Of a DNA stretch of 64,000 nucleotides, positions 10,810 through 46,413 are shown one piece after another. The stretch covers positions 1 to 64,000 of the forward strand of contig NZ_BMCM01000007.1 in assembly GCF_014635185.1 (NCBI RefSeq), read 5' to 3'. The stretch is from Microbacterium murale (GTDB lineage Bacteria > Actinomycetota > Actinomycetes > Actinomycetales > Microbacteriaceae). The stretch's first letter is position 1, and every line of letters starts with the position of its first letter. The notes beneath the pieces are model-generated. The model made no database searches. It was not told the origin of the DNA and saw nothing but the letters and a program-made list of their open reading frames with translations. Made by a program: the position numbers and the translations under genes.

Positions 10810-11681
10810 GCGCGCGTCCAGGGCGGTTGACGCCCTACCTGTTCATCCTGCCGGCAGCGGCGATATACGGGGTCTTTCTGATCGTCCCCCTCGTTCAGAC
10901 CGCGGTGATGAGCTTCTGGAAGTGGGACGGGTTGTCTCCGGTCTACGAATGGATCGGTTTCGACAACTACGTGCGGATGTTCAGTGACGGGACGGTCTGG
11001 TCGGCGGCGGGGAACAACCTGAAATGGGTGGTACTGGCAGTCTTCCCGATCGTGATCGGGCTCGCGCTCGCGCTCATCCTGCAGCAGGCCAGACCGCGCG
11101 GACGCACGGCATACCGCGCGATTTACTTCTTGCCGTACGTGCTGCCAACAGTCGTCGTGGCGCTTGCCTGGGGGTGGATCTACCACCCCTCTTTCGGAAC
11201 GTTGAACTCCGGGCTGGAGGCGATCGGTCTCGGCGCGCTCGCTCAGAACTGGACGGGCGACTCGAATCTCGCACTCTTCGCGCTGGCGACGGCCGCGAAC
11301 TGGACTGGTTTCGGCTTCTGCATGACACTTTTCCTCTCGGGTCTCAATGCCGTGGACCCAGCATTGTATGACGCGGCGAAAGTCGATGGCACGTCCGCGT
11401 GGCAGCGCTTTCGATACGTGACGCTTCCGGCGATCGCAAATACTACGAACATCGTTGTGCTCGTCGTGTTCATCAATACCGTGCGCGTATTCGACATTGT
11501 GTTCGTCATGACTGGAGGGGGCCCAGCCGGAGCCACCGAGGTGCTCGGGACGAAGATCTACCGCGGAACCTTTCAGGATCTCGACATCGGGTACGGCTCC
11601 GCGATCGCCATGTTCATGGTGCTCCTCATCCTGGTCACCACCGTCGTCTACCTGCGTTCGAGGGAGCGTGATAACGCATGA
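10806..11681 (+). CDS. CUT1 sugar ABC transporter permease (MalF type)
   Basis: A 291-residue permease starting at a GTG inside the stop of the binding-protein gene (GTGA overlap). Six membrane segments are expected, the first being LTPYLFILPAAAIYGVFLIVP. The EAA loop is LYDAAKVDGTSAWQRF, and the MTGGGPAG block before the last segments is typical of MalF-type subunits. It ends in an ATGA overlap with the partner permease. Confidence 0.92.
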   Translation: MSARPGRLTPYLFILPAAAIYGVFLIVPLVQTAVMSFWKWDGLSPVYEWIGFDNYVRMFSDGTVWSAAGNNLKWVVLAVFPIVIGLALALILQQARPRGRTAYRAIYFLPYVLPTVVVALAWGWIYHPSFGTLNSGLEAIGLGALAQNWTGDSNLALFALATAANWTGFGFCMTLFLSGLNAVDPALYDAAKVDGTSAWQRFRYVTLPAIANTTNIVVLVVFINTVRVFDIVFVMTGGGPAGATEVLGTKIYRGTFQDLDIGYGSAIAMFMVLLILVTTVVYLRSRERDNA

Positions 11682-31266: not shown

Positions 31267-32412
31267 ATGAGCGTCGAAGCACGGTCAACAAAGGCTGGCA
31301 CCCGCTATCTGGCGAGGGTGAAGTCCGGCCCGAAACTCGTTGCTTCAAAGACCTTCAGCCGCAAGAAGGACGCTGAGGCATGGGAGCGTGAGCAGAAGCA
31401 CCTGCTCGAGACCGGACGACCGCTCCCGCCAAGCCGCAAGTTCACCCTTGAGCAACTCGTGAAGAGATTCCAAACGTCGCGCAAAGGCGGCAATCCGCAC
31501 ACCGTCAACACCGATGACAACAACCTCGCCGCTCTTCCGCCCGCGCTTCTCGCCCGTCCGATCACCACGATTCAGACCAGCGACATCCGCGCGCACCTCA
31601 TGTCGGAGCTGCACAACGGCAAGGCACCTGCCACGGTGGCCCGCGCCAAGACGACTCTGAGTGCCCTGTTTACCTACGCCGAGGCCGAAGGCATGCTCAG
31701 CCAACCGCATCCGGTGCGATCGATGAAGAAGATCACTCAGCTGTCGATCACTCAACCATCGGTAAGCCCTGGCAATATTCCGACGCCCGAGATCCTTGCG
31801 GCAAGGCTCGAGGTACTGCGCGAGCGTCGCGAGGACATTGCGGACGTGTACGAGTTCAAGTCGCTGACCGGTCTTCGATGGGGCGAATTGCGAGCGATGC
31901 GTGTCGGGTGGCTGATCGAAATTCCCCTTGCGCAACTATCCGTGACGCGCTCGCACTCGGACAACTACGAGGAGAAGGATCCGAAGTCATGGCGCGGAAC
32001 CCGATTGGTACCGCTGTCCCCGCGCGCGCTTGAAATCTTCCAGAAGTACGCGGACGGTAAGTCGGCCGATGAATACCTCTTCACGAACAGGTATGGCGGG
32101 CAGCTGAAGGCTGGCGTTGTGCGCAAGTTCTCTCTCGGCTTCCGACGCCATGCCCTACGCCACTATGCGGCGTCGACATGGCTCAGGCTGGGGACTCCTG
32201 TCCACGAAGTGGCCGAATATCTCGGTGACGATCCACGCACTGTTCTGAAGATCTACGCGCACATCCTCGGCGAAGGACAACGGCGTGATTTCGTGCGTCG
32301 CCTCGGCGAAGCAGAAGCCGCTCAGAATAAGGCGGGACACTACAGGGACACTAACATTTCGAATTCGGCCACACCGGCCAAGATTTCCGACCCGAACGGC
32401 TTCGGAATCTAG
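31267..32412 (+). CDS. Tyrosine recombinase (phage-type integrase)
   Basis: A 381-residue site-specific recombinase. It has an AP2-like N-terminal arm-binding region, a SAM-like core-binding domain (about 60-150) and a catalytic domain with Arg in TGLRWGEL, HALRH (HxxR) and the nucleophile Tyr in LGDDPRTVLKIYAH. Its stop is 22 bp from the 3' end of tRNA-Ser(GCU), the classic arrangement for an element integrated into a tRNA gene. The element would extend to the left, through the sugar operons. The other attachment site was not found in the window. Confidence 0.92.
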   Translation: MSVEARSTKAGTRYLARVKSGPKLVASKTFSRKKDAEAWEREQKHLLETGRPLPPSRKFTLEQLVKRFQTSRKGGNPHTVNTDDNNLAALPPALLARPITTIQTSDIRAHLMSELHNGKAPATVARAKTTLSALFTYAEAEGMLSQPHPVRSMKKITQLSITQPSVSPGNIPTPEILAARLEVLRERREDIADVYEFKSLTGLRWGELRAMRVGWLIEIPLAQLSVTRSHSDNYEEKDPKSWRGTRLVPLSPRALEIFQKYADGKSADEYLFTNRYGGQLKAGVVRKFSLGFRRHALRHYAASTWLRLGTPVHEVAEYLGDDPRTVLKIYAHILGEGQRRDFVRRLGEAEAAQNKAGHYRDTNISNSATPAKISDPNGFGI

Positions 32413-32434
32413 CGTCTGATCTGGGATTCAATGG

Positions 32435-32460
32435 CGGAGACGAGGGGATTTGAACCCCTG
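32435..32460. other. Probable attachment site (att) in the tRNA-Ser 3' half
   Basis: Integrases adjacent to tRNA 3' ends normally recombine at the T-arm/acceptor part of that tRNA. The bases from the acceptor end through the T-arm here are therefore the expected core. A direct repeat of this segment should mark the far boundary of the element, but none was seen within the window. Confidence 0.5.
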
Positions 32461-32523
32461 GACCCCTTGCGAGGTCTCCACCTTAGCAGGGTGGTGCACT
32501 AGGCCGGACTATGCGACGTCTCC
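32435..32523 (-). tRNA. tRNA-Ser(GCU)
   Basis: The minus strand folds as an 89-nt serine tRNA. Acceptor stem GGAGACG pairs with CGTCTCC plus discriminator G. The anticodon stem CCACC/GGTGG encloses the loop CTGCTAA (anticodon GCT), followed by a long variable arm typical of serine tRNAs and the T-loop TTCAAAT. The 3' CCA is not encoded. Its 3' end faces the integrase and is the likely attachment site. Confidence 0.95.
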
Positions 32524-33668: not shown

Positions 33669-34421
33669 TCAGCTCGCCGGCAGCGCTTCGCCGCCGTCGG
33701 ACAGCAGGCGTGCAGTCGCGGTCGCCATGTGGACAGCCATCGCGGACGCCGCAGCATCGCCGTCGCCTGCACGCACCCCTGCCAGCACGGCCTCATGCTC
33801 GGCGACCGCCCGCTCCGCCTCGGCACGGTCGTGCACCGCCCGATCCGCGTAGACCTGCAGGAGCGAACGGATGACGTGCACATGGTCCGTCAGCGTCTCG
33901 TTGCCTGCGGCTTCGGCGAGCGCGTGGTGGAAGTCAAGGTCGGCCTTGGCGAAAGCAGGGAGGTCGCCGACGGTCTCACGCATTCGCTTCACGCTCTTGT
34001 CGAGGCGGGAGAGGACGCCGGCATCCGCCCGCGCGGCAGCAAGGCGGGCGACGTAGATCTCCAGGCCTTCGCGCAGCTCCAGCAACTGAGCCGTGTTGCG
34101 CTCACCGATCAGTAGACCCCATCGCAGCGTCTGCGGCAGGAGCTCACTCGCGAGCCCGCGAAGGTACGTGCCGGACCCCGGCCGCACATCGACGATTCCG
34201 AGGATCTCCAGAGCGGCGAGCGCTTCGCGCACGGCCGAACGACCGACGCCGAGCGTTGCGGAGAGTTGCCGCTCCGGTGGCAGTCGAGTGCCGGCTGCCA
34301 CCGAACCGCTCGTGAACAGGTCGAGCAGACGGCGCGCGACTTCTGACACCGGTGTACCAGAGGGCAGCGCGCTCAGTGCGGCGGTGATGTCATCAACCGG
34401 TTCGCCGGGGTATGCGGGCAT
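33669..34421 (-). CDS. GntR-family (FadR subfamily) regulator
   Basis: A 250-residue regulator with a winged helix at about residues 25-90 (AAGTRLPPERQLSATLGVGRS, GIVDVRPGSGTYLRG). The all-helical FCD domain shows likely metal ligands in LDFHHALAEAAGN and HEAVLAGVRAGD. It is divergent from the MFS/sugar-acid operon starting at 34531 and shares a 110-bp control region holding a 20-bp inverted repeat. It probably represses that operon until a sugar acid binds. Confidence 0.88.
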   Translation of the reverse strand: MPAYPGEPVDDITAALSALPSGTPVSEVARRLLDLFTSGSVAAGTRLPPERQLSATLGVGRSAVREALAALEILGIVDVRPGSGTYLRGLASELLPQTLRWGLLIGERNTAQLLELREGLEIYVARLAAARADAGVLSRLDKSVKRMRETVGDLPAFAKADLDFHHALAEAAGNETLTDHVHVIRSLLQVYADRAVHDRAEAERAVAEHEAVLAGVRAGDGDAAASAMAVHMATATARLLSDGGEALPAS

Positions 34422-34464
34422 GGGTTCAACATACCCGGATCACTTCACAAGGCGAGACTTGCAA

Positions 34465-34484
34465 TTGGTCAACCGGTTTGCCAA
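34465..34484. promoter_or_regulatory. Probable GntR operator
   Basis: TTGGTCAACCGGTTTGCCAA is a 20-bp near-perfect palindrome (two mismatched pairs), centred between the divergent GntR and MFS genes. It contains the TGGT...CC core common in FadR-subfamily operators. Confidence 0.7.
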
Positions 34485-34530
34485 AATGTTCGAAGCATCG
34501 CCCGTGATCATCGTCGATTCAGGAGTCACT

Positions 34531-35895
34531 GTGGACAACCCTCAGACCGAGAGCCCGGTCGCGAAATCTGCGATCCGCAAGGTCGCCATCCGCCTCGTGC
34601 CGTTCGTCGCCCTGATGTTCTTCATCAACTACCTCGATCGCACCGCCATCGGCTTCGCCTCCCCCAATGGCATGAACGACGACCTCGCCCTGAGCGCCGC
34701 ACAGTTCGGTTTCGCGTCCGGCGTCTTCTTCATCGGCTACATCCTTCTCGAGGTACCGTCGAACCTCGCCCTGCACAGGTTCGGTGCCCGCCGCTGGCTG
34801 GCCCGGATCATGGTCAGCTGGGGCATCGTCGCGCTGCTGTTCACCTGGGTCCAGAACTTCGAACAGCTCGTCGTCCTGCGCTTCCTGCTCGGGGTCGCCG
34901 AAGCAGGCTTCTTCCCTGGGGCCATCCTGTTCCTCAGCCTCTGGGTCCCCGCTCGCTACCGCGGCCGCATCCTGATGCTCTTCTACCTGGCGCAGCCCCT
35001 GACCACGGTCATCGGCGCGCCGCTCGCCGGGGCTCTCATCCAGCAGCACGGCGTCTTCTTCGGCCTCGAAGGCTGGCGCTTCATGTTCATGGGCGTGGCG
35101 ATCCCGGCGATCGTCGTCGGCGTCATCGCCTGGTTCTATCTGAAGGACAAGCCTGCCGATGCGAAGTGGCTCACTCCCGAAGAGCAGACCTGGCTCACGG
35201 GCGCACTGGAAGCGGAACGCAAGACGACCGAGTCCTCCGAGAAGCACGTCTCCGCACGATTCGCCTTCTCGAGCGGACGCGTCTGGATGCTGTCGTTCAT
35301 CTACTTCGGCTTCATCTACGGTCTCTACGCGCTGGCGTTCTTCCTCCCCACGATCATCGAGGGGTTCCAGACGGAGGCCGGCGGAGCATACGACGTGTTC
35401 CAGAAGGGGCTCATCACCGCGATCCCGTATCTTCCCGCAGCCATCGTGATGTACTTCTGGTCACGCGATGCCGGCAAGCGCGGGCTCAAGACATGGCACA
35501 TCGCCGTCCCCGCGCTCGCGGGTGCGGTCTCCATCCCGCTGGCGCTGTTCATGGGATCACCGGTGGCGACGATGATCGTCATCACAGTCACGGCGTGCGC
35601 GATCTTCGCGGCGCTGCCGAACTTCTGGACCCTGCCGACGCAGTTCCTCACCGGTGTCGCCGCAGCAGCGGGCGTCGCCCTGATCAACACGATCGGCAAC
35701 CTCGCCGGCTTCAGCGCGCCGTACATCACCGGAGCTGTGCACGACTGGACCGGTGGTTACGAGGTGCCGATGTTCATCGTCGGCGGCTTCATGCTGCTGT
35801 CGGCGGTGCTGATGGTCGTCCTCGCACGGCAGAATCGCAAGACGCCGGATGCCGTAACCGTCGAGCGCGCCGAGTCGGTGGCAGGCGAAGGATGA
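34531..35895 (+). CDS. MFS transporter, anion:cation symporter (ACS) type
   Basis: A 454-residue major facilitator carrier with 12 expected membrane segments. The first is FVALMFFINYLDRTAIGFA, where the YLDR motif is typical of ACS-family organic-anion and hexuronate carriers. The conserved loop FLGVAEAGFFPGAI also fits. The GTG at 34531 was chosen for its AGGAG site; an ATG at 34486 without a site is possible. It overlaps the next gene (ATGA) and likely imports the acid degraded by the downstream enzymes. Confidence 0.85.
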   Translation: MDNPQTESPVAKSAIRKVAIRLVPFVALMFFINYLDRTAIGFASPNGMNDDLALSAAQFGFASGVFFIGYILLEVPSNLALHRFGARRWLARIMVSWGIVALLFTWVQNFEQLVVLRFLLGVAEAGFFPGAILFLSLWVPARYRGRILMLFYLAQPLTTVIGAPLAGALIQQHGVFFGLEGWRFMFMGVAIPAIVVGVIAWFYLKDKPADAKWLTPEEQTWLTGALEAERKTTESSEKHVSARFAFSSGRVWMLSFIYFGFIYGLYALAFFLPTIIEGFQTEAGGAYDVFQKGLITAIPYLPAAIVMYFWSRDAGKRGLKTWHIAVPALAGAVSIPLALFMGSPVATMIVITVTACAIFAALPNFWTLPTQFLTGVAAAAGVALINTIGNLAGFSAPYITGAVHDWTGGYEVPMFIVGGFMLLSAVLMVVLARQNRKTPDAVTVERAESVAGEG

Positions 35896-36686
35896 TCGGT
35901 CTCGGCACCTACGCCTACTTCTGGCAGCACTCCGACCGCGTACCGGAGCCGCTGAGCCTGATCGACGCCTTCGAGGACACCCGCGCCCAGGGCGTCGACC
36001 TCTTCCAGATCTGCGACTACGCACCGTTGGAGCAGATGAGTGACTCCGAACTGCGCGATGCGGCGGGAGCAGCTCGCGACCTCGGTCTCACGATCGAACT
36101 CGGCACCAAAGGCATCGTTCCCGAGCACCTGACCCGCTTCCTCGAGCTGGCCAAGATCTTCGATGCGCACCTGGTGCGCAGCATGCTCTATGGCCCTGAC
36201 TCACGCCCCTCACTCGCCGAGGCCGAGACCTGGTTGCGGCACACACTTCCCACTTACGAGGCCGCCGGCGTCACCCTCGCGCTCGAGACCTACGAGCAGC
36301 TCGCCACCACCGACCTGCTCGCCGTGATCGAGCGCGTGGGCAGTGAACACCTCGGCGTCTGCCTGGACCCCGCCAACGTGGTCGCTCGCCTCGAGTCCCC
36401 GCGCATTTGCGTCGAGCAGACGGCCGCGCTCACCAAGAACGTGCACGTGAAGGACTTCGCCTTCGCCCGCCAGCCGGGCTGGGTCGGGTTCACCTACAGC
36501 GGTGCCTCGATGGGGTCGGGCCTGCACGATTACGCCCATCTTCTGGAGACCGTGCAGCCGCGCGAGCGCGGCATAAACGAGATCGTCGAGCACTGGCTGC
36601 CCTGGCAGGACGACGCCGAGACCACCATCCGAACCGAGCGGGAATGGACCCGCGCCACCCTGGAACACCTGAGGAGCACACAATGA
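35892..36686 (+). CDS. TIM-barrel enzyme (xylose-isomerase-like), candidate 3-oxo-isoapionate decarboxylase
   Basis: A 264-residue AP-endonuclease-2/xylose-isomerase-like TIM barrel. Likely metal ligands are Glu in ALETYEQ, Asp in GVCLDPAN, His in NVHVKDF and Glu in INEIVEHW. The start overlaps the MFS stop and its end overlaps the next gene (both ATGA). The family includes isomerases, epimerases and OiaC-type 3-oxo-isoapionate decarboxylases. The next-door PGDH_C-type oxidoreductase makes the OiaC role the best guess, but this is inference from context. Confidence 0.7.
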   Translation: MIGLGTYAYFWQHSDRVPEPLSLIDAFEDTRAQGVDLFQICDYAPLEQMSDSELRDAAGAARDLGLTIELGTKGIVPEHLTRFLELAKIFDAHLVRSMLYGPDSRPSLAEAETWLRHTLPTYEAAGVTLALETYEQLATTDLLAVIERVGSEHLGVCLDPANVVARLESPRICVEQTAALTKNVHVKDFAFARQPGWVGFTYSGASMGSGLHDYAHLLETVQPRERGINEIVEHWLPWQDDAETTIRTEREWTRATLEHLRSTQ

Positions 36687-37537
36687 GCAGCAGCTACAAG
36701 ATCGCCGTCATCGGCGCCGGTGGAAAGATGGGCATGCGAGTGTCCGACAACCTGATGAAGACGGGGCACACCGTCTGGTACATCGAGAACTCCCCCGCCG
36801 GCCAGCAGCGCACGATCGAGGCGGGCCGCGAGCTTACCGACGCCTCCGCCGCGGTCGCCGATGCAGACATCGTCGTGCTCGCCGTTCCCGACCTCGCCCT
36901 CGGACAGGTCACAGCAGACCTCGTCCCCCAGCTGCGCTCCGGCGCGATCGTGCTGACTCTCGACCCCGCTGCCGCCTACGCCGGACTCCTCACCACCCGC
37001 GAGGATGTCATCCAGGCCGTGGCGCACCCGTGCCATCCGTCGATCTTCCTGCAGCGCGAGACACCGGAGCAGTGGGCGGACACCTTCGGCGGCATCGCCG
37101 CCCCGCAGGATGCCATCGCGGCGATCGAAAGCGAAGACGACGCCAAGAAGGCCATCGTCGAGGCCACTGTCCGCGCGATCTACGCGCCCGTCATCGACGT
37201 GCACTGGGTCACGATCAAGCAGCTCGCCCAGCTCGAGCCGACGCTTGTCGAGACGGTCGCGTGCATGATCGGCTCTCTTCTGAACGAGGCTCTGCAGGAG
37301 ACCGTGAACACGATGGGCGTCCCGGAGGCGGCTGCGCGCAGCATCCTGTACGGTCACACGCAGGTGGCACTGGCCAACGGGCTGCGCGGCGACAACCCGT
37401 TCAGCGACGCGTGCCTGATCGCGATGGACTACGGCAGGGAGAGCATCATCAAGGACGACTGGAAGAAGATCTTCCGCGACGACGAGCTCGACAAGAACCT
37501 CGCCCGCATGCTGCACCTCGACGAGATCGAGCGCTGA
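36683..37537 (+). CDS. PGDH_C-type NAD-dependent oxidoreductase, candidate D-apionate oxidoisomerase
   Basis: A 284-residue protein with an N-terminal Rossmann fold (VIGAGGKMGMRVSDNLMKTGH) and an all-helical C-terminal domain of the phosphogluconate-dehydrogenase C-term type (NPFSDACLIAMDYGRESIIK). The HPCHPSIF block in the middle is characteristic. From memory of the literature, ApnO enzymes that convert D-apionate to 3-oxo-isoapionate belong to this family. It is translationally coupled to the TIM-barrel gene, which supports a two-step oxidation and decarboxylation. Confidence 0.7.
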   Translation: MSSSYKIAVIGAGGKMGMRVSDNLMKTGHTVWYIENSPAGQQRTIEAGRELTDASAAVADADIVVLAVPDLALGQVTADLVPQLRSGAIVLTLDPAAAYAGLLTTREDVIQAVAHPCHPSIFLQRETPEQWADTFGGIAAPQDAIAAIESEDDAKKAIVEATVRAIYAPVIDVHWVTIKQLAQLEPTLVETVACMIGSLLNEALQETVNTMGVPEAAARSILYGHTQVALANGLRGDNPFSDACLIAMDYGRESIIKDDWKKIFRDDELDKNLARMLHLDEIER

Positions 37538-37538
37538 G

Positions 37539-38294
37539 ATGACCCGGCTGACTGGCAAGACGGCGCTCGTCACGGGCGCCGGATCCGGCATCGGACGCGC
37601 GGTCGCGGAGCGGTTCGCTCGCGAGGGCGCCCGAGTGATCATCGCTGACAGAGATGCGGATGCCGCGGCATCCGTCGCCGCCGACATCGGCGATGCTGCT
37701 CGTGCGGCCGTCGTCGACATTGCCGACGAGGCATCCGTCGAGGCTGCCTTCGCTGACCTCGTCGCCGCCGGCTGGAGTCCAGACGTGGTGGTGGCGAACG
37801 CCGGTGTACAGCTGTTCGGGCAGGATGCCAAGGCCGCTGATCTCGATCTCGACGTGTGGCGCCGCACGATCGACGTGAACCTGACCGGCACCTTCCTCAC
37901 GGTCAAGCACTCCGTGCGGGCGATGCTCGCCTCGGGCGGCGGGTCGATCATCCTCACTGGGAGCCCGACCGGCCTGAACGGCGAAGGCCAGGACTTCACC
38001 GCCTACTCCGCTTCGAAGGCCGGCATCCATGGCCTGACGCGCACCGTCGCCGCGGCGTACGCCAGTGACGGCATCCGGGTGAACACCGTCGTGCCGGCTT
38101 ACACCGAGACCGGACTCGTCTCCACGATCTCCGACGACCCTGAGTCGCGCGCGGCGATCATCGGCCGCATCCCGCTCGGCCGCGCCGGCAGTCCCGCCGA
38201 TGTCGAAGGGATCATGGTGTTCCTCGCGAGCAGCGACGGCGAGTTCGCCACCGGTGCGCTGTTCGCGGTCGACGGGGGTATGACGACGCTGTGA
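37539..38294 (+). CDS. SDR-family oxidoreductase
   Basis: A 251-residue classical short-chain dehydrogenase. It has TGAGSGIG (cofactor), VVANAGVQ, the catalytic Ser in ILTGSPTG and YSASK (Tyr/Lys). It starts one base after the preceding stop. In this operon it could oxidise an aldose such as apiose to its lactone, or reduce or oxidise a ketose product. The sequence alone does not decide. Confidence 0.85.
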   Translation: MTRLTGKTALVTGAGSGIGRAVAERFAREGARVIIADRDADAAASVAADIGDAARAAVVDIADEASVEAAFADLVAAGWSPDVVVANAGVQLFGQDAKAADLDLDVWRRTIDVNLTGTFLTVKHSVRAMLASGGGSIILTGSPTGLNGEGQDFTAYSASKAGIHGLTRTVAAAYASDGIRVNTVVPAYTETGLVSTISDDPESRAAIIGRIPLGRAGSPADVEGIMVFLASSDGEFATGALFAVDGGMTTL

Positions 38295-38307
38295 GCACGG
38301 TCGACGC

Positions 38308-40047
38308 GTGACGACAACATCCTGGTGGCGAAGCGAGGCTGCCACGTGGCAGGCCGACGGATGGTCATTGGAGCTGCGCGGTGATGAGCTGGCGGACATC
38401 CGCCGCGGTGGCGATGTGATCCTGCGCGCGGTGCGTGCAGTCGTCCGAGATCGCAGCTGGAACACCGTGCCAGCCATTGTCACCGCGATGGACTCGGATG
38501 CGACGTCACTCCGACTCGCTCTGCGCCACGAAGGTCTCGGCGCCGAAGTGCTGTCGACGCTCACGGTACACGCGAGCGGAGACGATCTCCTGGTCGGGTG
38601 GGATGCCGAGAACCTCCGCGAATTCTCGACGTGCCGCATTGGTCTCGTGGTGCTGCATCCGGCGTCAGATTCCGGCCGCGGTGTCACCGTCGTGCACTCT
38701 GACGAAGCCTCGGAACAGACATCCTTTCCCACACGCATCAGCCCGCACCAGCCGATAGTCGACATCCGCGCATTGGAGCTTCACCCCAGAGCAGGTGCGG
38801 ATGGCGTGACCACGCTGCGTTTCGATGGCGATGTCTTCGAGATGGAGGATCAGCGCAACTGGTCGGACGCCTCGTTCAAGACATACAGCCGTCCGCTGAG
38901 TCTCCCCTACCCATACTCTGTGGCAGCCGGTGAACGCGTGCGCCAGGCGATCACCGTGAACGCAGTTCTGTCGCGGTCCACCGATGGCCCCGTGCCGGAC
39001 GAGATCGTCCTCGTCGAAGGCGGCGTGTTCCCTGCCACCGGCGTCGAAGCCTCGACCGCGCCGGATCCGGTGCCGCCGTGCGCGGACGGAAGCTTCCGCG
39101 TCGTCGAACTGGACCTGACCACACCCACGTGGTCCGCGGCGCTGCACAGAGCGGCCGCGGATGGGTTGCCGCTGGACGTCCGCCTCGTCGCTGCTGAAGA
39201 CCCGCAGCCCCTCGCGGACGCGGCGAGCGCATTCGCGCGCCTACCGATCATCGCGGTCACACCGTTCGACAGCGTGCTGCACGTGAGTGATGGACCGATC
39301 GTGGCCCGCACCCGCACAGCGCTCGACGAAGCCTGCATCCGCACCGAACTCAGAGCAGGTGCGCGATCGCACTTCACCGAGCTCAATCGCGAGAAGGCGC
39401 GCATCCCGAACGAGGTCGACGGCATCGCATTCACGACGACGCCCCTGTTCCACTCGCTCGACACCGAACAGCTCGTCGAAGCTCTGCCGATGCAGCGCCT
39501 CATCGCCACCCAGGCAGTCGGGATGGCCGATCACCGACCCGTGCACATCGGGCCCGTCACGTTGCGCCCCCGGTTCAACAATGTGGCCACCTCTCCCGGG
39601 ACCGCTCCGACCCGGACCGACCTCAGTGGGGGATACGGAGCGCAGTTCACCGGCGCGGACGATGATCGGCAGAGTTCGCCGGAACTCGCGGCGTGGACCA
39701 TAGCGAGTGCAGCAGCACTCGCCATTCCCGGTGTCGCCAGCATCTCGTGGTTCGAGACCTGGGGACCGCGCGGACTGAGCGATCTCGGCCGCGAACCTCA
39801 TCCCGCAGCCGAGGCGATCGCAGTGCTCACATCGTTGGCTGGACGAACACTCTTGTCGGGTTCGAGTCCTGATGGACTTCTCTGGGCGATCGGGGCAAGG
39901 GCGGCTGATGAGGACATCGTGCTCGTGTCGAATCTCGACCGGGAGTCGAGAGCGTACAGGGTCGCAGTACCCGGCCGACCGGCACTGTCGGGCTCGCTTC
40001 CCGCCGGCTCATGGATGCGCCTCACGACCTCCGGCAGATCCGACTAA
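38308..40047 (+). CDS. Large uncharacterised protein, candidate D-apionolactonase (ApnL-like)
   Basis: A 579-residue cytoplasmic protein starting at a GTG 14 bp after the SDR. It has no domain I can name with certainty. An N-terminal beta-rich part (to about residue 210) is followed by an alpha/beta part with barrel-like strands (LDVRLVAAEDP, ITVTPFDS-like, GIAFTTTPLFHSLD, HIGPVTLRPRFN, SWFETWGPRG) and a C-terminal beta-sandwich. D-apionate lactonases (ApnL) are a large stand-alone family of about this size in the same gene context, which is the basis of the suggestion. Confidence 0.55.
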   Translation: MTTTSWWRSEAATWQADGWSLELRGDELADIRRGGDVILRAVRAVVRDRSWNTVPAIVTAMDSDATSLRLALRHEGLGAEVLSTLTVHASGDDLLVGWDAENLREFSTCRIGLVVLHPASDSGRGVTVVHSDEASEQTSFPTRISPHQPIVDIRALELHPRAGADGVTTLRFDGDVFEMEDQRNWSDASFKTYSRPLSLPYPYSVAAGERVRQAITVNAVLSRSTDGPVPDEIVLVEGGVFPATGVEASTAPDPVPPCADGSFRVVELDLTTPTWSAALHRAAADGLPLDVRLVAAEDPQPLADAASAFARLPIIAVTPFDSVLHVSDGPIVARTRTALDEACIRTELRAGARSHFTELNREKARIPNEVDGIAFTTTPLFHSLDTEQLVEALPMQRLIATQAVGMADHRPVHIGPVTLRPRFNNVATSPGTAPTRTDLSGGYGAQFTGADDDRQSSPELAAWTIASAAALAIPGVASISWFETWGPRGLSDLGREPHPAAEAIAVLTSLAGRTLLSGSSPDGLLWAIGARAADEDIVLVSNLDRESRAYRVAVPGRPALSGSLPAGSWMRLTTSGRSD

Positions 40048-40097: not shown

Positions 40098-41099
40098 TCA
40101 CCCAGACGTCGACTGCCTCACCACCAGCTCGGGCCGGAACCGCACGTTGCGCTCGTAGTCTCCGTCGGGCTCGCTGATCGACCGCAGCAGCAGTTCGACA
40201 GCGGTGTGACCGATCAGCTGCGCCGGCTGGCGGATCGAGCTGAGCGGCACCACCGTAGCCGAGGCGAAGTCGATGTCGTCGTACCCGATCAGGGCGATGT
40301 CTTCGGGCACCCTGAGAGTGTTGAACATCGAGAACGCCTGCAGCAGCCCCACGGCGAGAAGATCGTTCGCGGCGAAGATCGCGTCAGGCCGGACCGCACG
40401 CTCGACGAGAGCCTCCCCTGCCGCTCTCCCGTTCAACACGGTGAGCGCAGGCATCTCGATCACCTCGAGCGAGGCATCCGGCGCCTCATCGACCGCGCGC
40501 CGCGCGCCGCGCAGACGATTGGCGACCTGCGCGATCGACGCCGGGCCGCCGATGAACGCGATGCGTCGACGACCGATTTCCAGCAGATGCCGCACCGCGA
40601 GGTAGCCTCCCTCGACGTCGTCGACCGACACCGAGCAGAACCTGCTGCCGGGGATCTCGTGGTCGACCAGGACCACCGGTGTGCCGGCATCCTGCATTCT
40701 GGCCAGCTTGTCGGCGGTTCCGGATGCCGGCGTGATCAGCACCCCGTTGACGCGCTGCTCTCGGAACAGATCGAGATAGCCGGCTTCCCGCGAGGCATCG
40801 TCGTCGCTGTTGCCGAGCAGCACCGAGAGGCCGTCTTCCTGCGCGCGCGTCTCCGCGCCGCGGGCGACATCGGCGAAGAACGGGTTGCCGGCGTCGAGCA
40901 CGACGAGCCCGATGCTGCGGCTGCGGCCGGCGCGCAGCTGACGTGCCGCGTCGTTGCGCACGAAGCCGAGCTCCTCGATCGCGGCGAGCACGCGCGCGAC
41001 CGTCTCGGCTGCGACCTTGTCCGGCCGGTTGAGAACGTTCGAGACCGTTCCGACAGAGACGGATGCCGCGACCGCGACATCTCGCACACTCACTGCCAC
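40098..41099 (-). CDS. LacI-family regulator of the rhamnose catabolic operon
   Basis: A 333-residue repressor with HTH VRDVAVAASVSVGTVSNVLNRP at the start and a full effector domain. The GTG at 41099 follows GAGGAGCA. It is divergent from rhaM-rhaI-rhaEW-rhaB, with the operator TGAAACGATTCA between them. It is strikingly similar to the regulator at 51476 (VSVGTVSNVLNRP, GFVRNDAAR, LSSIRQP in both), so the two are paralogues controlling the two halves of one pathway. Confidence 0.88.
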   Translation of the reverse strand: MAVSVRDVAVAASVSVGTVSNVLNRPDKVAAETVARVLAAIEELGFVRNDAARQLRAGRSRSIGLVVLDAGNPFFADVARGAETRAQEDGLSVLLGNSDDDASREAGYLDLFREQRVNGVLITPASGTADKLARMQDAGTPVVLVDHEIPGSRFCSVSVDDVEGGYLAVRHLLEIGRRRIAFIGGPASIAQVANRLRGARRAVDEAPDASLEVIEMPALTVLNGRAAGEALVERAVRPDAIFAANDLLAVGLLQAFSMFNTLRVPEDIALIGYDDIDFASATVVPLSSIRQPAQLIGHTAVELLLRSISEPDGDYERNVRFRPELVVRQSTSG

Positions 41100-41238
41100 T
41101 ACTGCTCCTCATCCTTCACGCTGGTCGCGAGTGTACGGCATCACCGGCCGCGTTCCGGGCCGACGCGGAACGACGAACGCGTCCAGCACGACGCGGATCC
41201 TGATCGATGTTGCGGGCAGCCGTCGACCGACCTATCAT

Positions 41239-41250
41239 TGAAACGATTCA
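41239..41250. promoter_or_regulatory. LacI-type operator of the rhamnose operon
   Basis: TGAAACGATTCA fits the consensus TGAAWCGWTTCA also seen as a perfect palindrome at 51373-51384 upstream of the rhamnose importer. It lies 34 bp before the rhaM start, in the divergent region shared with the regulator gene. Confidence 0.75.
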
Positions 41251-41283
41251 CGACCCCAATACTCACCGAGGAGCATGCCACCG

Positions 41284-41661
41284 ATGACAGCCGCAACCCG
41301 CGTCTGCTTCCAGCTGCAGGTACGCCCAGAGCTGCTGGACGAGTACCTTCGCCGCCACTCGCCTGTCCGGCCGGAGATGCTCGCCGAGATCGCCGCAGCC
41401 GGTCGCCGCAACTACTCGCTGTTCCTCGGCGAGGGCGGCACCCTGATCGGCTACTACGAAACCGACGACGACGCGTCCGCTCGGGCGTACCTCGCCGAGT
41501 CGGCCGTCGCCACCCGCTGGGAAGCGGAGATGGCACGATTCTTCGTCGATCTCGACGGCCGACCCGACCAGGCCGCATCCCCACTCACCGAAGTCTTCAA
41601 TCTCGCGGAGCAGCTCTCCGCCTCAGCATCCGACACCTCCGCAGAAAGCGAACAGTCATGA
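41284..41661 (+). CDS. rhaM: L-rhamnose mutarotase
   Basis: A 125-residue enzyme that interconverts the alpha and beta anomers of L-rhamnose. It has CFQLQVRPELLDEYLRRH with the catalytic His, the SLFLGEGGTLIGYYE strand pair and WEAEMARFF near the end. The second ATG (41284) was chosen because GAGGAG lies 10 bp before it and only one base before the first ATG. It is the first gene of the plus-strand rhamnose operon and overlaps rhaI (ATGA). Confidence 0.9.
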   Translation: MTAATRVCFQLQVRPELLDEYLRRHSPVRPEMLAEIAAAGRRNYSLFLGEGGTLIGYYETDDDASARAYLAESAVATRWEAEMARFFVDLDGRPDQAASPLTEVFNLAEQLSASASDTSAESEQS

Positions 41662-42824
41662 GCATTCTCAACCCCGCCATTCTCACCGAGCTCGAGAAGC
41701 AGTCGATCGAACTGCCCTCGTGGGCGTTCGGCAACTCCGGCACCCGCTTCAAGGTGTTCGGCACCCCCGGCACGCCCCGCGACCCGTGGGAGAAGATCGC
41801 TGATGCCGCGCAGGTCAACAAGTACACCGCCCTCGCTCCGAGCGTCGCGCTGCACATCCCATGGGACCTCGTCGACTCCTATGATGACCTGCGCAAGCAC
41901 GCGGAAGACCTCGGCGTCTCACTCGGCACTGTGAACTCCAACACGTTCCAGGACGACGATTACAAGTTCGGCGCTCTCACGCACGAGGACGCGGCGGTCC
42001 GCAACAAGGCGATCGATCATCACCTCGCCTGCATCGACGTGATGGATGCGACCGGATCGCGCGACCTGAAGATCTGGCTCGCCGAGGGCTCGAACTACCC
42101 GGGCCAGGCCGACCTGCGCGGCCGCCAGGACCGCCTCAACGAATCCCTGCAGAAGATCTACGCGCGCCTGGGCGACGACCAGCGCCTCGTGCTGGAGTAC
42201 AAGTTCTTCGAGCCGGCGTTCTACCACACCGACGTTCCGGACTGGGGGACTTCGTACGCGCAGGTCGCTTCGCTCGGCGACAAGGCCATGGTGTGCCTCG
42301 ACACGGGCCACCATGCGCCGGGCACGAACATCGAGTTCATCGTCATGCAGCTGCTGCGTCTCGGCAAGCTGGGCTCCTTCGACTTCAACTCGCGCTTCTA
42401 CGCCGACGACGACCTCATCGTGGGTGCGGCAGACCCGTTCCAGCTGTTCCGCATCCTGTTCGAGGTCATCCGTGGCGGCGGCCTCAACAACCCCGACGTG
42501 GCGTTCATGCTCGACCAGTGCCACAACGTCGAGGACAAGATCCTGGGCCAGATCCGCTCGGTGCTGAACGTGCAGGAGATGACGGCGCGTGCGCTGCTCG
42601 TCGACAAGGATGCTCTGACCGCCGCCCAGAAGTCGGGCGACGTTCTCGCGGCCAATGCCGTGTTCATGGACGCGTTCTACACCGACGTGCGCCCGGCCCT
42701 TGCCGAATGGCGCGAGACGCGCGGCCTCGCCGGCGACCCGATGACTGCGTACGCGGCATCCGGTTACCAGCAGAAGATCGCGGCCGACCGCGTCGGCGGC
42801 GTCCAGTCCGGTTGGGGCGCGTAA
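41658..42824 (+). CDS. rhaI: L-rhamnose isomerase (RhaI type)
   Basis: A 388-residue TIM-barrel isomerase converting L-rhamnose to L-rhamnulose. The metal-site blocks are LVLEYKFFEPAFYHTD, VCLDTGHHAPGTNIEF and FDFNSRFYADDDLIVG, matching the RhaI rather than the Escherichia RhaA family. Its start overlaps the rhaM stop. The open frame extends far upstream through rhaM and the intergenic region, but only this start gives a family-length protein. Confidence 0.93.
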   Translation: MSILNPAILTELEKQSIELPSWAFGNSGTRFKVFGTPGTPRDPWEKIADAAQVNKYTALAPSVALHIPWDLVDSYDDLRKHAEDLGVSLGTVNSNTFQDDDYKFGALTHEDAAVRNKAIDHHLACIDVMDATGSRDLKIWLAEGSNYPGQADLRGRQDRLNESLQKIYARLGDDQRLVLEYKFFEPAFYHTDVPDWGTSYAQVASLGDKAMVCLDTGHHAPGTNIEFIVMQLLRLGKLGSFDFNSRFYADDDLIVGAADPFQLFRILFEVIRGGGLNNPDVAFMLDQCHNVEDKILGQIRSVLNVQEMTARALLVDKDALTAAQKSGDVLAANAVFMDAFYTDVRPALAEWRETRGLAGDPMTAYAASGYQQKIAADRVGGVQSGWGA

Positions 42825-42859
42825 GCGCCGCCCTCAAACTTCGACACAAGGACTATGAC

Positions 42860-44896
42860 ATGACGAACCCCACTGCCGCCGCCCTCATCGCGCGGTCGAA
42901 CCGCCTCGGCGCAGACCCGAAGAACACGAACTACGCCGGCGGCAACACGTCGGCCAAGGGCACCGAGACCGACCCGGTCACTGGTCAGCCCGTCGAGCTG
43001 CTGTGGGTCAAGGGCTCCGGTGGAGACCTCGGAACGCTAAAGGAGCAGGGCCTCGCGGTGCTGCGCCTCGACCGCTTCCGTGCGCTCGTCGACGTCTACC
43101 CCGGCGTCGACCGCGAAGATGAGATGGTCGCCGCGTTCGACTACTGCCTGCACGGCAAGGGCGGCGCTGCACCTTCGATCGACACCGCCATGCACGGCCT
43201 GGTGGATGCTGCACACGTCGACCACCTGCATCCCGACTCCGGCATCGCGATCGCGACAGCCGCCGACGGCGAGGCGCTGACCACGAAGATCTTCGGCGAG
43301 AAGGTCGTCTGGGTGCCGTGGCGCCGTCCCGGTTTCCAGCTCGGACTCGACATCGCAGAGATCAAGAAGCAGAACCCGGCCGCGATCGGCTGCATCCTCG
43401 GCGGGCACGGCATCACCGCATGGGGCGAAACGTCCGAGGAGGCAGAGGCCAACTCGCTGTGGATCATCGACACCGCCGCCGCCTACATCGAGGCGAACGG
43501 CAAGGCCGACCCGTTCGGCAGCGTACGGGCCGGATACAAGGCACTGCCTGAGGCCGAGCGTCGTGAGCGCGCCGCTGCCATCGCCGGCACGGTCCGCGGC
43601 ATCGCATCGACGGACAAGCCGATGGTCGGTCACTTCACCGACTCCGACGTGGTGCTCGACTTCCTGGCATCCGAGCGCGCACCAGAGCTCGCGGCCCTCG
43701 GAACCAGCTGCCCCGACCACTTCCTGCGCACCAAGGTCAAGCCGCTCATCCTCGATCTGCCGACGACGGCGTCCGTCGAAGAGCAGATCGCGCGCCTTCA
43801 CGAACTGCACACCGAGTACCGCGCCGACTACCAGGCCTACTACGACGCGCACGCGACGGACGAGAGCCCGGCGATCCGCGGCGCAGATCCACTCATCGTT
43901 CTGGTCCCCGGCATCGGCATGTTCTCGTACGGCGCGAACAAGCAGACCGCCCGCGTCGCCGGCGAGTTCTATGTGAACGCGATCAACGTGATGCGCGGCG
44001 CGGAGTCGCTCTCGACCTACTCCCCCATCTCGGATGCCGAGAAGTTCAACATCGAGTACTGGGCGCTGGAAGAGGCCAAGCTGCAGCGGATGCCGAAGCC
44101 GAAGTCGCACCAGGGTCGCATCGCATTCGTCACGGGCGCGGCATCCGGAATCGGCAAGGCCATCGCCGTCCGCCTCGCCGCCGAGGGCGCGTGCGTCGTC
44201 GTCGCCGACCTCGATCTCGAGAAGGCGCAGGCCGCGGCCGCCGAACTCGGAAACACGGATGTCGCGATCGGCGTCGCCGCCAACGTCGCGGATGCTGACG
44301 CCGTGCAGGGCGCGCTGAACGATGCCGTCCTCGCCTTCGGTGGTGTCGATCTCGTCGTCAACAACGCCGGACTGTCCCTCTCGAAGCCGTTGCTGGAGAC
44401 CACCGAGAAGGACTGGGATCTGCAGCACGATGTCATGGCGAAGGGCTCGTTCCTCGTCTCGAAGGCCGCGGCGAAGGTGCTCATCGATCAGAAGCTCGGC
44501 GGCGACATCATCTACATCTCGTCGAAGAACTCCGTCTTCGCCGGCCCGAACAACATCGCCTACTCGGCGACCAAGGCCGATCAGGCCCACCAGGTGCGTC
44601 TGCTCGCCGTCGAACTCGGCGAATTCGGCATCCGCGTCAACGGCATCAACCCCGACGGCGTCGTGCGCGGGTCCGGCATCTTCGCCTCCGGCTGGGGCGC
44701 GAACCGCGCCGCGACGTACGGAGTCGAGGAGAAGGATCTCGGCCAGTTCTACGCGAACCGCACGATCCTCAAGCGCGAGGTCGTGCCCGAGAACGTCGCG
44801 GATGCCGTGTTCGTGCTCACGGGCCCGGAGCTCAGCCGCACGACGGGCCTGCACATCCCGGTCGACTCCGGCGTCGCCGCCGCCTTCCTCCGATGA
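42860..44896 (+). CDS. rhaEW: Bifunctional rhamnulose-1-phosphate aldolase / lactaldehyde dehydrogenase (RhaEW)
   Basis: A 678-residue fusion. Residues about 1-420 are a class II aldolase domain with zinc ligands in HVDHLHPDSGIA (near 119) and GGHGITAWG. Residues about 423-678 are a short-chain dehydrogenase with VTGAASGIGKAIA, NNAGLS, YISSKNS and YSATKAD. It splits L-rhamnulose 1-phosphate to DHAP and L-lactaldehyde and oxidises the latter to L-lactate. It lies 35 bp after rhaI and overlaps rhaB (ATGA). Confidence 0.93.
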   Translation: MTNPTAAALIARSNRLGADPKNTNYAGGNTSAKGTETDPVTGQPVELLWVKGSGGDLGTLKEQGLAVLRLDRFRALVDVYPGVDREDEMVAAFDYCLHGKGGAAPSIDTAMHGLVDAAHVDHLHPDSGIAIATAADGEALTTKIFGEKVVWVPWRRPGFQLGLDIAEIKKQNPAAIGCILGGHGITAWGETSEEAEANSLWIIDTAAAYIEANGKADPFGSVRAGYKALPEAERRERAAAIAGTVRGIASTDKPMVGHFTDSDVVLDFLASERAPELAALGTSCPDHFLRTKVKPLILDLPTTASVEEQIARLHELHTEYRADYQAYYDAHATDESPAIRGADPLIVLVPGIGMFSYGANKQTARVAGEFYVNAINVMRGAESLSTYSPISDAEKFNIEYWALEEAKLQRMPKPKSHQGRIAFVTGAASGIGKAIAVRLAAEGACVVVADLDLEKAQAAAAELGNTDVAIGVAANVADADAVQGALNDAVLAFGGVDLVVNNAGLSLSKPLLETTEKDWDLQHDVMAKGSFLVSKAAAKVLIDQKLGGDIIYISSKNSVFAGPNNIAYSATKADQAHQVRLLAVELGEFGIRVNGINPDGVVRGSGIFASGWGANRAATYGVEEKDLGQFYANRTILKREVVPENVADAVFVLTGPELSRTTGLHIPVDSGVAAAFLR

Positions 44897-46413
44897 CAAC
44901 TGACGGGTCGCCGAGCGAGCGTACCCCCGGGTCGTTGAGCGAGCGCAGCGAGACGAAACGGGTCGAGCGAGGAGCGCAGCGACGAGTCGAAACCGCCTCG
45001 CACGGCGAACCGACCCGCGCCGTAGCCGCAGTCGACCTCGGCGCCACGTCGGGACGCGTCATGATCGGGCGCGTCGGACCTGACACCCTAGACCTGGAGC
45101 TCGTCACCCGGTTCCCGAATGGCCCCGTCGAACTCGAAGACGGCCTGCACTGGGATTTCGACGCGCTCTATGGCCACATCATCGTCGGCCTAGCCGAAGC
45201 GGTCCGCCGCGAACCCGCGATCGAGAGCATCGGCATCGACTCCTGGGCCGTGGACTACGGGCTGCTGCGTGACGGCGAGCTGCTCGCGCAACCCTTTCAC
45301 TACCGCGACGATCGCACCGAACGGGGCGTCGCGAAGGTGCACGAGATCACTCCGTTCGCCGAGCTGTACCAACGCAACGGCCTGCAGTTCCTGCCGTTCA
45401 ACACCCTGTATCAGTACCGCGTCGATGAGCGACTCGCGGATGCGGACACCTCTCTACTGATCCCTGATCTCATCGCGTACCTGTTGACGGGTATCAGCGT
45501 CGCCGAGCGCACGAACGCGTCGACCACGGGACTCCTGGGCGTGCGGTCGGGCGAGTGGGATGCCGAACTGGCAGATCGCCTCGAAATCCCCTCGACGGCG
45601 CTCCCCGCCCTGGTCGACCCCGGATCGGTGATCGGGATGCTGCGCCCCGAGCTCGCGGCACGCATCGGGAAAGACCTCCCCGTCATCGCGGTCGGCTCGC
45701 ATGACACGGCATCCGCCGTCGTCGCCGTTCCACTCTCGTCGCAGAACTCGGCGTACATCTCCTGCGGCACCTGGGGACTCGTCGGCGTCGAGCTCACCGA
45801 GCCGGTGCTGACGGATGCCGCGCGCGAAGCCAACTTCACCCACGAACTCGGAGTCGACGGGCGCTACCGCTTCCTGCACAACGTCACGGGGCTCTGGCTG
45901 CTCAGCGAGACCGTGCGCACGTGGGAAGCGGAGGACGACACGGCGATCGATCTGCCCGAACTGTTGGATGCCGCGTCCGCGGTGACCGGCGACATCGCGC
46001 TGTTCGACGCGAACGATGCGTCGTTGAGCGCCCCCGGTGACATGCCCGCACGCATCGCAGCGGTGTTGCGCGCCGACGGCTCGGTCGTTCCCGGAGCCCG
46101 TCCGGCCTTCGCCCGCACGATCGTCGAGTCGATCGCTGCGGCCTTTGCGACCGCGGTCCAGACGGCCGCTGACTTGTCAGGGCGTCGGCTCGACAGCATC
46201 CACCTCGTCGGCGGTGGATCGCTCAACCGGCTGCTCTGCCAAGCGACCGCCGACCGTTCCGGTCTTCCTGTGCTGGCGGGGCCCGTCGAGGCGACTGCAC
46301 TCGGCAACGTACTCGTGCAGGCTCGCGCCCTCGGCGCCGCACCGGCGACGCTCGAGGAACTGCGGGCGCTGGTCGCCCGTACGCACGAGCCCGTGCGCTT
46401 CGACCCGCGCTGA
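44893..46413 (+). CDS. rhaB: Rhamnulokinase with repeat-derived N-terminal insertion
   Basis: A 506-residue FGGY-family kinase phosphorylating L-rhamnulose. The ATPase fold begins only at about residue 42 (AAVDLGATSGRVMIG), with SIGIDSWAVDYGLL, NTLYQYR, VGSHDTASAV and HLVGGGSLNRLLCQ further on. Residues 5-34 are Ser/Glu/Arg-rich and encoded by repeat units of a GC-rich palindromic repeat (44905-44993). The ATG overlaps the rhaEW stop, so the insertion seems to be translated. It adds about 35 residues not found in normal rhamnulokinases. Confidence 0.92.
   Translation: MTTDGSPSERTPGSLSERSETKRVERGAQRRVETASHGEPTRAVAAVDLGATSGRVMIGRVGPDTLDLELVTRFPNGPVELEDGLHWDFDALYGHIIVGLAEAVRREPAIESIGIDSWAVDYGLLRDGELLAQPFHYRDDRTERGVAKVHEITPFAELYQRNGLQFLPFNTLYQYRVDERLADADTSLLIPDLIAYLLTGISVAERTNASTTGLLGVRSGEWDAELADRLEIPSTALPALVDPGSVIGMLRPELAARIGKDLPVIAVGSHDTASAVVAVPLSSQNSAYISCGTWGLVGVELTEPVLTDAAREANFTHELGVDGRYRFLHNVTGLWLLSETVRTWEAEDDTAIDLPELLDAASAVTGDIALFDANDASLSAPGDMPARIAAVLRADGSVVPGARPAFARTIVESIAAAFATAVQTAADLSGRRLDSIHLVGGGSLNRLLCQATADRSGLPVLAGPVEATALGNVLVQARALGAAPATLEELRALVARTHEPVRFDPR
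44905..44993. repeat. GC-rich REP-like repeat inside the rhaB reading frame
   Basis: Two tandem related units, each beginning GGGTCG and ending CGAAAC, occupy 44929-44959 and 44960-44993, with a degenerate unit at 44905-44928. Each contains imperfect dyad symmetry around GAGCGCAGCGA. The form resembles dispersed palindromic repeats common in Microbacteriaceae genomes, recalled rather than searched. The repeat lies in frame between the rhaB start codon and its conserved core. Confidence 0.7.

Follow-up and report, generated by a model that had tools for sequence, protein, structure and literature searches.

Apiose is a branched sugar of plant cell walls, and an oxidative pathway for D-apiose and D-apionate was reportedly described in Carter et al. 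2018 (Nat Chem Biol 14:696). The names ApnL, ApnO, OiaC, ApsD, LerK, LerI and DerI, and most of the reactions attached to them, are used here as reportedly set out there and in related studies. According to one study, LerK, LerI and DerI convert L-erythrulose to erythrose 4-phosphate (PMC10733421); another reports growth on D-apiose of the Rhodobacteraceae strain LCG007, whose annotated gene set is of the Rhizobium type (PMC11747546). Here, we analyzed a 64-kb stretch of Microbacterium murale DNA (the window), which is the start of contig C7 in a 3.9 Mb genome of 18 contigs, and found that an operon in it, divergent from a gene for a GntR/FCD-family regulator, is probably an oxidative D-apiose catabolic module. 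We infer every substrate and reaction of this module from gene content, homology, operon structure, a shared motif and co-occurrence.

The operon most likely encodes a form of the oxidative apiose route, already known in outline, that is non-phosphorylating as far as erythrulose, with a short-chain dehydrogenase/reductase (SDR) as the predicted first enzyme and the erythrulose steps encoded elsewhere. A major facilitator superfamily (MFS) carrier would take up apiose (or apionate), the SDR would oxidize D-apiose at C1 with NAD+ to D-apionolactone, and a homologue of ApnL would open the lactone to give D-apionate. ApnO would then oxidize D-apionate with migration of the hydroxymethyl group to yield 3-oxo-isoapionate, from which OiaC would remove CO2 to leave L-erythrulose. 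Finally, erythrulose would be converted to D-erythrose 4-phosphate by three enzymes encoded elsewhere: LerK, a kinase of the DAK type, and the isomerases LerI (TIM-like) and DerI (RpiB-like). The GntR/FCD protein would control the operon through a palindrome at 34464-34485.

The conserved core of the module and its predicted operator

The carrier, TIM barrel, PGDH_C protein, SDR and large protein listed in a first-pass annotation of the window were all present and in that order (Table 1), and the tight junctions described there for the first three enzymes were borne out by measurement. The MFS and TIM barrel genes overlap by 4 bp, as do the TIM barrel and PGDH_C genes, while gaps of 1 bp and 13 bp precede the SDR gene and the gene for the 579-residue protein, respectively; this spacing is consistent with a single transcript. 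All of these genes are thus confirmed, and the proposed link to D-apiose and D-apionate was largely right, with two roles corrected. The parallel drawn with ApnL, ApnO and OiaC holds in that all three types are present, but it paired the TIM barrel with ApnL. That pairing was rejected, since the TIM barrel matches OiaC-type proteins and the 579-residue protein matches ApnL. The latter had been labeled a large orphan, which it is not, because it has matches in 29 of 148 related genomes (own genome included in both counts; in G046 the match is short and sits at the end of a contig) and hits the NCBIfam ApnL model NF049900 with E 1.4e-61.

Identities to Pantoea and other proteobacterial proteins, together with the NF049900 match, assign the three proteins to the OiaC type, the ApnO type and the ApnL homologues. 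The TIM barrel is 52% identical to a Pantoea protein that adjoins its ApnO, and its residues E132, D159, H185 and E233 were invariant in 7/7 aligned sequences. It gave no NCBIfam match at E 0.001 and, by phmmer, one weak match among solved structures. The PGDH_C protein is 57% identical to a Pantoea relative in an apiose-type cluster and about 41-42% identical to proteins whose genes neighbor those for ApsD and ApnL in Rhizobium, Shinella, Salipiger and Martelella; these identities and its PF16896 score place it with ApnO, while other PGDH_C matches in the 148 relatives had partial coverage and at most 42% identity. Clustering with non-ApnO enzymes, an outcome raised in the first-pass annotation, was not seen: when 7 of the 251 plasmid records matching the PGDH_C protein were examined, all 7 matches lay beside OiaC or beside kinase, OiaX, ApsD or ApnL genes.

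ApnO (counted when near full-length and at least 62% identical), the SDR orthologue (E 1e-80 or better and at least 72% identity) and ApnL were each found in 29 of the 148 genomes, and each pair overlapped in 27 (pairwise Fisher p 5.5e-25, uncorrected for kinship). A further 25/148 genomes had ApnO matches that were partial and weak only. Gene order was read in the 80 best of 488 confirmed stretches found through the ApnO (PGDH_C) protein, hereafter the named loci, in which genes were counted by tblastn with a 50-bit limit and some contigs are cut. An OiaC-type gene shared the stretch with ApnO in 78/80 named loci, which argues that the gene order is not due to chance. DAK kinase, RpiB, TIM isomerase and OiaC were all present in 65/80, a GntR regulator match (tblastn, at least 50 bits) in 68/80 and an MFS relative in 49/80. 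The order seen most often was GntR / MFS-DAK-RpiB-TIM-OiaC-ApnO, after which SDR-ApnL usually comes in Microbacterium. DAK-RpiB-TIM is absent from that position in the window and in Microbacterium sp. CH12i (L105), the nearest named relative by ApnO.

The upstream regions of GntR genes in related loci have a palindrome, ATTGGTCAACCGGTTGACCAAT, in common. At no more than 5 mismatches, it was found in 40/68 GntR upstream regions of the named loci compared with 3/700 random stretches from the same loci. The 1.48 Mb of named loci hold 59 sites at this limit. Of these, 46 precede GntR by no more than 250 bases, 6 precede only ApnL/SDR units transcribed on their own, and 7 lie elsewhere; 3 of these 7 appear to be upstream of an MFS gene from which the GntR gene has become separated. 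The window site is the sole site in the genome at no more than 3 mismatches, and 0/100 shuffles of the window contained one at that limit. The proteobacterial clusters L009-L012 had no palindrome within 6 mismatches. We infer that the GntR/FCD protein binds this site; its top NCBIfam match is the NanR subfamily, with a score below cut-off.

The carrier is 68% identical to that of the Pantoea cluster and scored 265 bits with TIGR00893 and 258 bits with HpaX, both below cut-off. Its likely start is the GTG at 34531, with an AGGAG Shine-Dalgarno site just 5' and a homologue in agreement, and not 34465.

Table 1. Features of the predicted module and its regulator in the window
Feature	Position	Strand	Basis and predicted role
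GntR/FCD-family regulator	33669-34421	-	PF00392 and PF07729 above cut-off; divergent from operon
Predicted operator of the GntR regulator, ATTGGTCAACCGGTTTGCCAAA	34464-34485		3 mismatches from the palindrome of related loci
MFS carrier	34531-35895	+	PF07690 161 bits, above cut-off; predicted apiose or apionate uptake
OiaC-type TIM barrel	35892-36686	+	PF01261 above cut-off; predicted 3-oxo-isoapionate decarboxylase
ApnO-type PGDH_C protein	36683-37537	+	PF16896 193 bits; predicted D-apionate oxidoisomerase; likely start ATG 36683
SDR	37539-38294	+	PF13561/PF00106; predicted NAD-dependent D-apiose 1-dehydrogenase, substituting for ApsD
Divergent ApnL homologue, 579 aa	38308-40047	+	NF049900 ApnL; predicted D-apionolactone lactonase

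The candidate first-step dehydrogenase and the ApnL homologue

No ApsD (Gfo/Idh/MocA) was found in the module, where the SDR stands in its place. Across the genome, matches to Rhizobium ApsD reached at most 32% identity (best 81.3 bits); the ApsD copies of four proteobacterial clusters are 66-71% alike. The SDR has the glycine motif, and, in an alignment of 35 sequences, D37, N114, S142, Y156 and K160 each showed at least 97% conservation; an aspartate of the D37 type in an SDR goes with a preference for NAD. It is a candidate D-apiose 1-dehydrogenase that would replace the unrelated ApsD, which agrees with the possible sugar dehydrogenase of the first-pass annotation. Its pairing with ApnL, the palindrome before separate SDR-ApnL pairs and its apiosidase-like neighbors all point to the first step.

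Each of these speaks against a rival explanation, which we consider unlikely: that external D-apionate or D-apionolactone is the substrate and that the SDR does another job, such as erythrulose reduction or oxidation of a polyol (for example, apiitol or threitol). In its favor, PDB relatives of the SDR include galactitol, polyol and sorbitol dehydrogenases. In addition, the core often occurs with neither SDR nor ApnL (41/80 named loci lack ApnL, some contigs being cut), and apionate may therefore be a substrate in its own right. However, no named locus had the SDR without ApnL, and 36/39 named loci with ApnL also had the SDR, counting a split gene in L183 and a fragment of 30 residues in L128; the tie is nevertheless not strict, as G009 and G087 have the SDR alone. 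In nine loci (L138, L144, L151, L158, L177, L180, L181 and L183, named loci picked by eye, and L070), SDR and ApnL stand together in transcription units apart from ApnO, and 7/9 of these pairs have their own upstream palindrome at no more than 5 mismatches, with L138 at 6 and L144 having none. In seven genomes, the SDR is detached from ApnO and ApnL, two of them (G009, G087) lacking both of these genes, and it adjoins a PF13204 apiosidase-like gene in 5/7 (G005, G075, G088, G118 and G009; not G133 or G087). The two apiosidase-like proteins checked with Pfam both scored above its cut-off; close relatives of them occur in 22/148 genomes, 20 of which have ApnO. Moreover, a lactone-making dehydrogenase fits beside a lactonase.

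We also considered the possibility that the SDR is a rhamnose 1-dehydrogenase. This was rejected, as it scored 157 with the NCBIfam model against a cut-off of 400 and the rhamnose cluster adjacent to the module has phosphorylating-route genes; rhamnosidase genes near two detached SDRs nevertheless lend the idea some plausibility. The fragment in L128, from Humibacter sp. RRB41 (10922-11011), is a 30-residue SDR piece only and lies in front of ApnL. A tblastn search of plasmids with the SDR gave no match at E 1e-50. A search of open-access literature returned no paper naming both apiose and Microbacterium, a scope too small to call the SDR assignment new.

The 579-residue protein matched no Pfam family and, by phmmer, had 0 matches among solved structures. 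With NF049900 it scored 208.8 bits and did not reach the equivalog cut-off of 750; by comparison, a Rhizobium BT03 protein, whose cluster also encodes ApnO, OiaX and a kinase for four-carbon acid sugars, scored 1059.8 bits and a Mesorhizobium protein 616.5 bits, the latter also below cut-off. The FEMEDQRNW and FTELNR blocks of the window protein were common to 3/3 proteobacterial proteins aligned, Rhizobium ApnL included. Residues E178, E180, D181, R183, K191, E358, N360 and H382 were invariant in 13/13 aligned sequences (3 of them proteobacterial), and in a wider actinobacterial set E358 was kept in 23/25 and the other seven in 25/25. A structure model (predicted local distance difference test 92) suggests a glycosidase-like barrel. 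With the whole model, the top Foldseek rows fit poorly (TM about 0.26); the barrel assignment comes from the aligner's second look, which took in residues 229-577 only and barely covered the N-terminal sandwich. Glycoside hydrolases of the GH30/GH51/GH79 kind, which have two catalytic glutamates, are the point of comparison, and E358 and E483 might correspond to these residues.

That the actinobacterial ApnL homologue is itself a glycosidase, such as one hydrolyzing apiosides inside the cell, and not a lactonase seems to us distinctly improbable: the EMEDQRNW and FTELNR blocks are common to Rhizobium ApnL, which passes the curated cut-off, and pairing with SDR and ApnO fits a lactonase. A more speculative idea, which we hold to be improbable, is that ApnL has a glycosidase barrel as its scaffold, retains a second glutamate like that of glycosidases and is paired in actinobacteria with a hitherto unassigned SDR-type D-apiose 1-dehydrogenase. 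If this were true, the homologue could cleave apiosides besides apionolactone, and a lactonase would be seen to have arisen from a glycosidase.

Several other ApnL genes stand in different settings. In Microbacterium oxydans BEL4b (L114:12622-13887), an MGH1-like glycoside hydrolase gene, the same gene as scanned in L061:7432-8697, directly follows ApnL and the SDR is absent from the operon. In G052 (L064:8619-10618), an ApnL homologue with an upstream palindrome (4 mismatches) occurs with no full-length ApnO and no SDR orthologue and may be a remnant. The Mesorhizobium relative (L013:8019-9914, 616 bits) lies beside an aldolase, an oxidoreductase and an ABC transporter, and its substrate may be another lactone.

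Predicted erythrulose steps, counter-evidence and genomic setting

As claimed in the first-pass annotation, the module holds no kinase. Nor did the genome give a match to a RuBisCO-like protein (PF00016); the RuBisCO-like (OiaX/OiaK) branch was rejected on this ground. The presence of ApnL-, ApnO- and OiaC-type genes beside the GntR regulator agrees with the unphosphorylated branch proposed there. Its expectation that erythrulose is processed elsewhere, with kinase and isomerase genes to be looked for in the genome, is supported by two DAK-kinase/RpiB/TIM cassettes at C1:111176-114085 and C6:257580-260600. Their kinases are 62% and 58% identical to the Pantoea kinase, and their isomerases were assigned by Pfam family. 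One cassette lies beside relatives of an MFS carrier, an SDR and a GntR-family regulator, and the other beside ABC transporter genes (judged by eye). The two cassettes are candidates for a role in this pathway.

In other genomes, a stretch 44% identical to Rhizobium OiaX (RuBisCO-like) was seen at the edge of the module locus of G047 (L049:2-589), where both branches may coexist. On a Haloarcula plasmid (L188:4186-8828), genes 47% identical to OiaX and 41% to OiaK adjoin an ApnO relative (43%), which suggests apionate use in haloarchaea.

A number of observations weigh against the apiose reading. For the operator, 28/68 GntR upstream regions of the named loci lack the palindrome at no more than 5 mismatches, as do the SDR/apiosidase loci L088, L089, L091, L092 and L095, the detached SDRs L093 and L094 and the lone ApnL of G005 (L044). 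Neither DAK cassette stretch has it within 6 mismatches, so the cassettes may serve other substrates. Co-occurrence has exceptions in both directions: ApnO without SDR and ApnL (G066, G111), SDR alone (G009, G087) and ApnL without ApnO and SDR (G046, G052). In L060, L061, L065 and L067, ApnL stands beside ApnO without the SDR, with an SDR orthologue elsewhere in each genome. The SDR family is broad and its substrate is not readable from sequence. PF13204 membership does not prove apiosidase activity, rhamnosidase genes occur at two SDR/apiosidase loci, and the window genome has no close apiosidase-like gene at the limit used for its relatives. None of the ApsD and OiaC comparison proteins is of proven activity, and the score of the ApnL homologue is far under its curated cut-off. 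The stretch with the Mesorhizobium ApnL relative holds no ApnO, OiaC or ApsD match, so the ApnL family is not confined to apiose clusters. A coincidental apiose link, with a different branched or C5 acid as the true substrate, is very improbable. Proteins of exactly these subfamilies are not known to have been assayed, the families PF16896 and PF01261 are broad, and an ApnL relative occurs in a Mesorhizobium stretch without ApnO, yet homologues of ApnL, ApnO and OiaC are jointly present here, apiosidase-like genes co-occur and Rhizobium-type counterparts exist.

Around the module, in the part of the window that includes 31267-32523 and 33669-34421, there is a tRNA-Ser(GCT) gene, as there is near the module in 6/13 related loci scanned (L060, L061, L090, L105, L108 and L110). 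Next to this tRNA, the window has a tyrosine-recombinase gene (PF00589), and inspection of the sequence by eye suggests the same for L060 and L105. The site resembles a hot spot for insertion, although no convincing att pair emerged among direct repeats near the integrase. Directly after the module (40098-46413), a LacI regulator gene is accompanied by genes for L-rhamnose use (mutarotase, isomerase-like protein, aldolase fused to an SDR and FGGY kinase), and a rhaM relative is near the module in 4/80 named loci. Plant pectin contains apiose and rhamnose together.

Comparison with described systems

The pathway frame is already known; the SDR assignment, the operator and the ApnL fold are the parts worth testing. 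The analysis extends predicted apiose use to common plant- and soil-associated actinobacteria and names a testable candidate for the first step, the SDR in place of ApsD, as a worked example of how an unrelated enzyme apparently came to perform one step of a pathway. It also gives the regulator a precise predicted site and ApnL a predicted fold, where sequence search with the window protein gave no solved relative.

Like the pathway reportedly described in Carter et al. 2018, the window has homologues of ApnL, ApnO and OiaC in a single operon, with erythrulose as the expected product, and LerK/LerI/DerI-type genes occur in sister operons and elsewhere in the window genome. Unlike that pathway, it has an SDR and not the Gfo/Idh/MocA enzyme ApsD, its ApnL falls far below the curated cut-off, and its kinase and isomerases are encoded outside the operon. 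The steps ascribed to LerK, LerI and DerI in the cited study match those predicted for the DAK/TIM/RpiB cassettes of the window genome (PMC10733421).

The clusters on the plasmids of Pantoea sp. At-9b (pPAT9B04) and Erwinia sp. E602 resemble the window in MFS (68%, Pantoea), OiaC (52-53%) and ApnO (57-58%), with the three in the same order; the Pantoea operon reads MFS-DAK-TIM-OiaC-ApnO. They differ in having the DAK kinase and TIM isomerase within the operon and a sugar-binding regulator after it, and in having no ApnL or SDR match above 60 bits in the stretch read. The clusters of Rhizobium, Shinella, Salipiger and Martelella share with the window ApnO, ApnL and a regulator annotated NanR (GntR-family), but hold ApsD. 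A four-carbon acid sugar kinase is present in Rhizobium, Salipiger and Martelella and OiaX in Rhizobium and Shinella, whereas the window genome has no RuBisCO-like match. Strain LCG007 also has ApnO, ApnL and NanR, by the annotation given in its own paper (PMC11747546). Finally, the apiose cluster of the E. coli ST131/ST14 complex lacks apsI, whereas that of the window lacks ApsD; the authors of that study propose that two other oxidoreductases stand in for the missing enzyme (PMC13001218).

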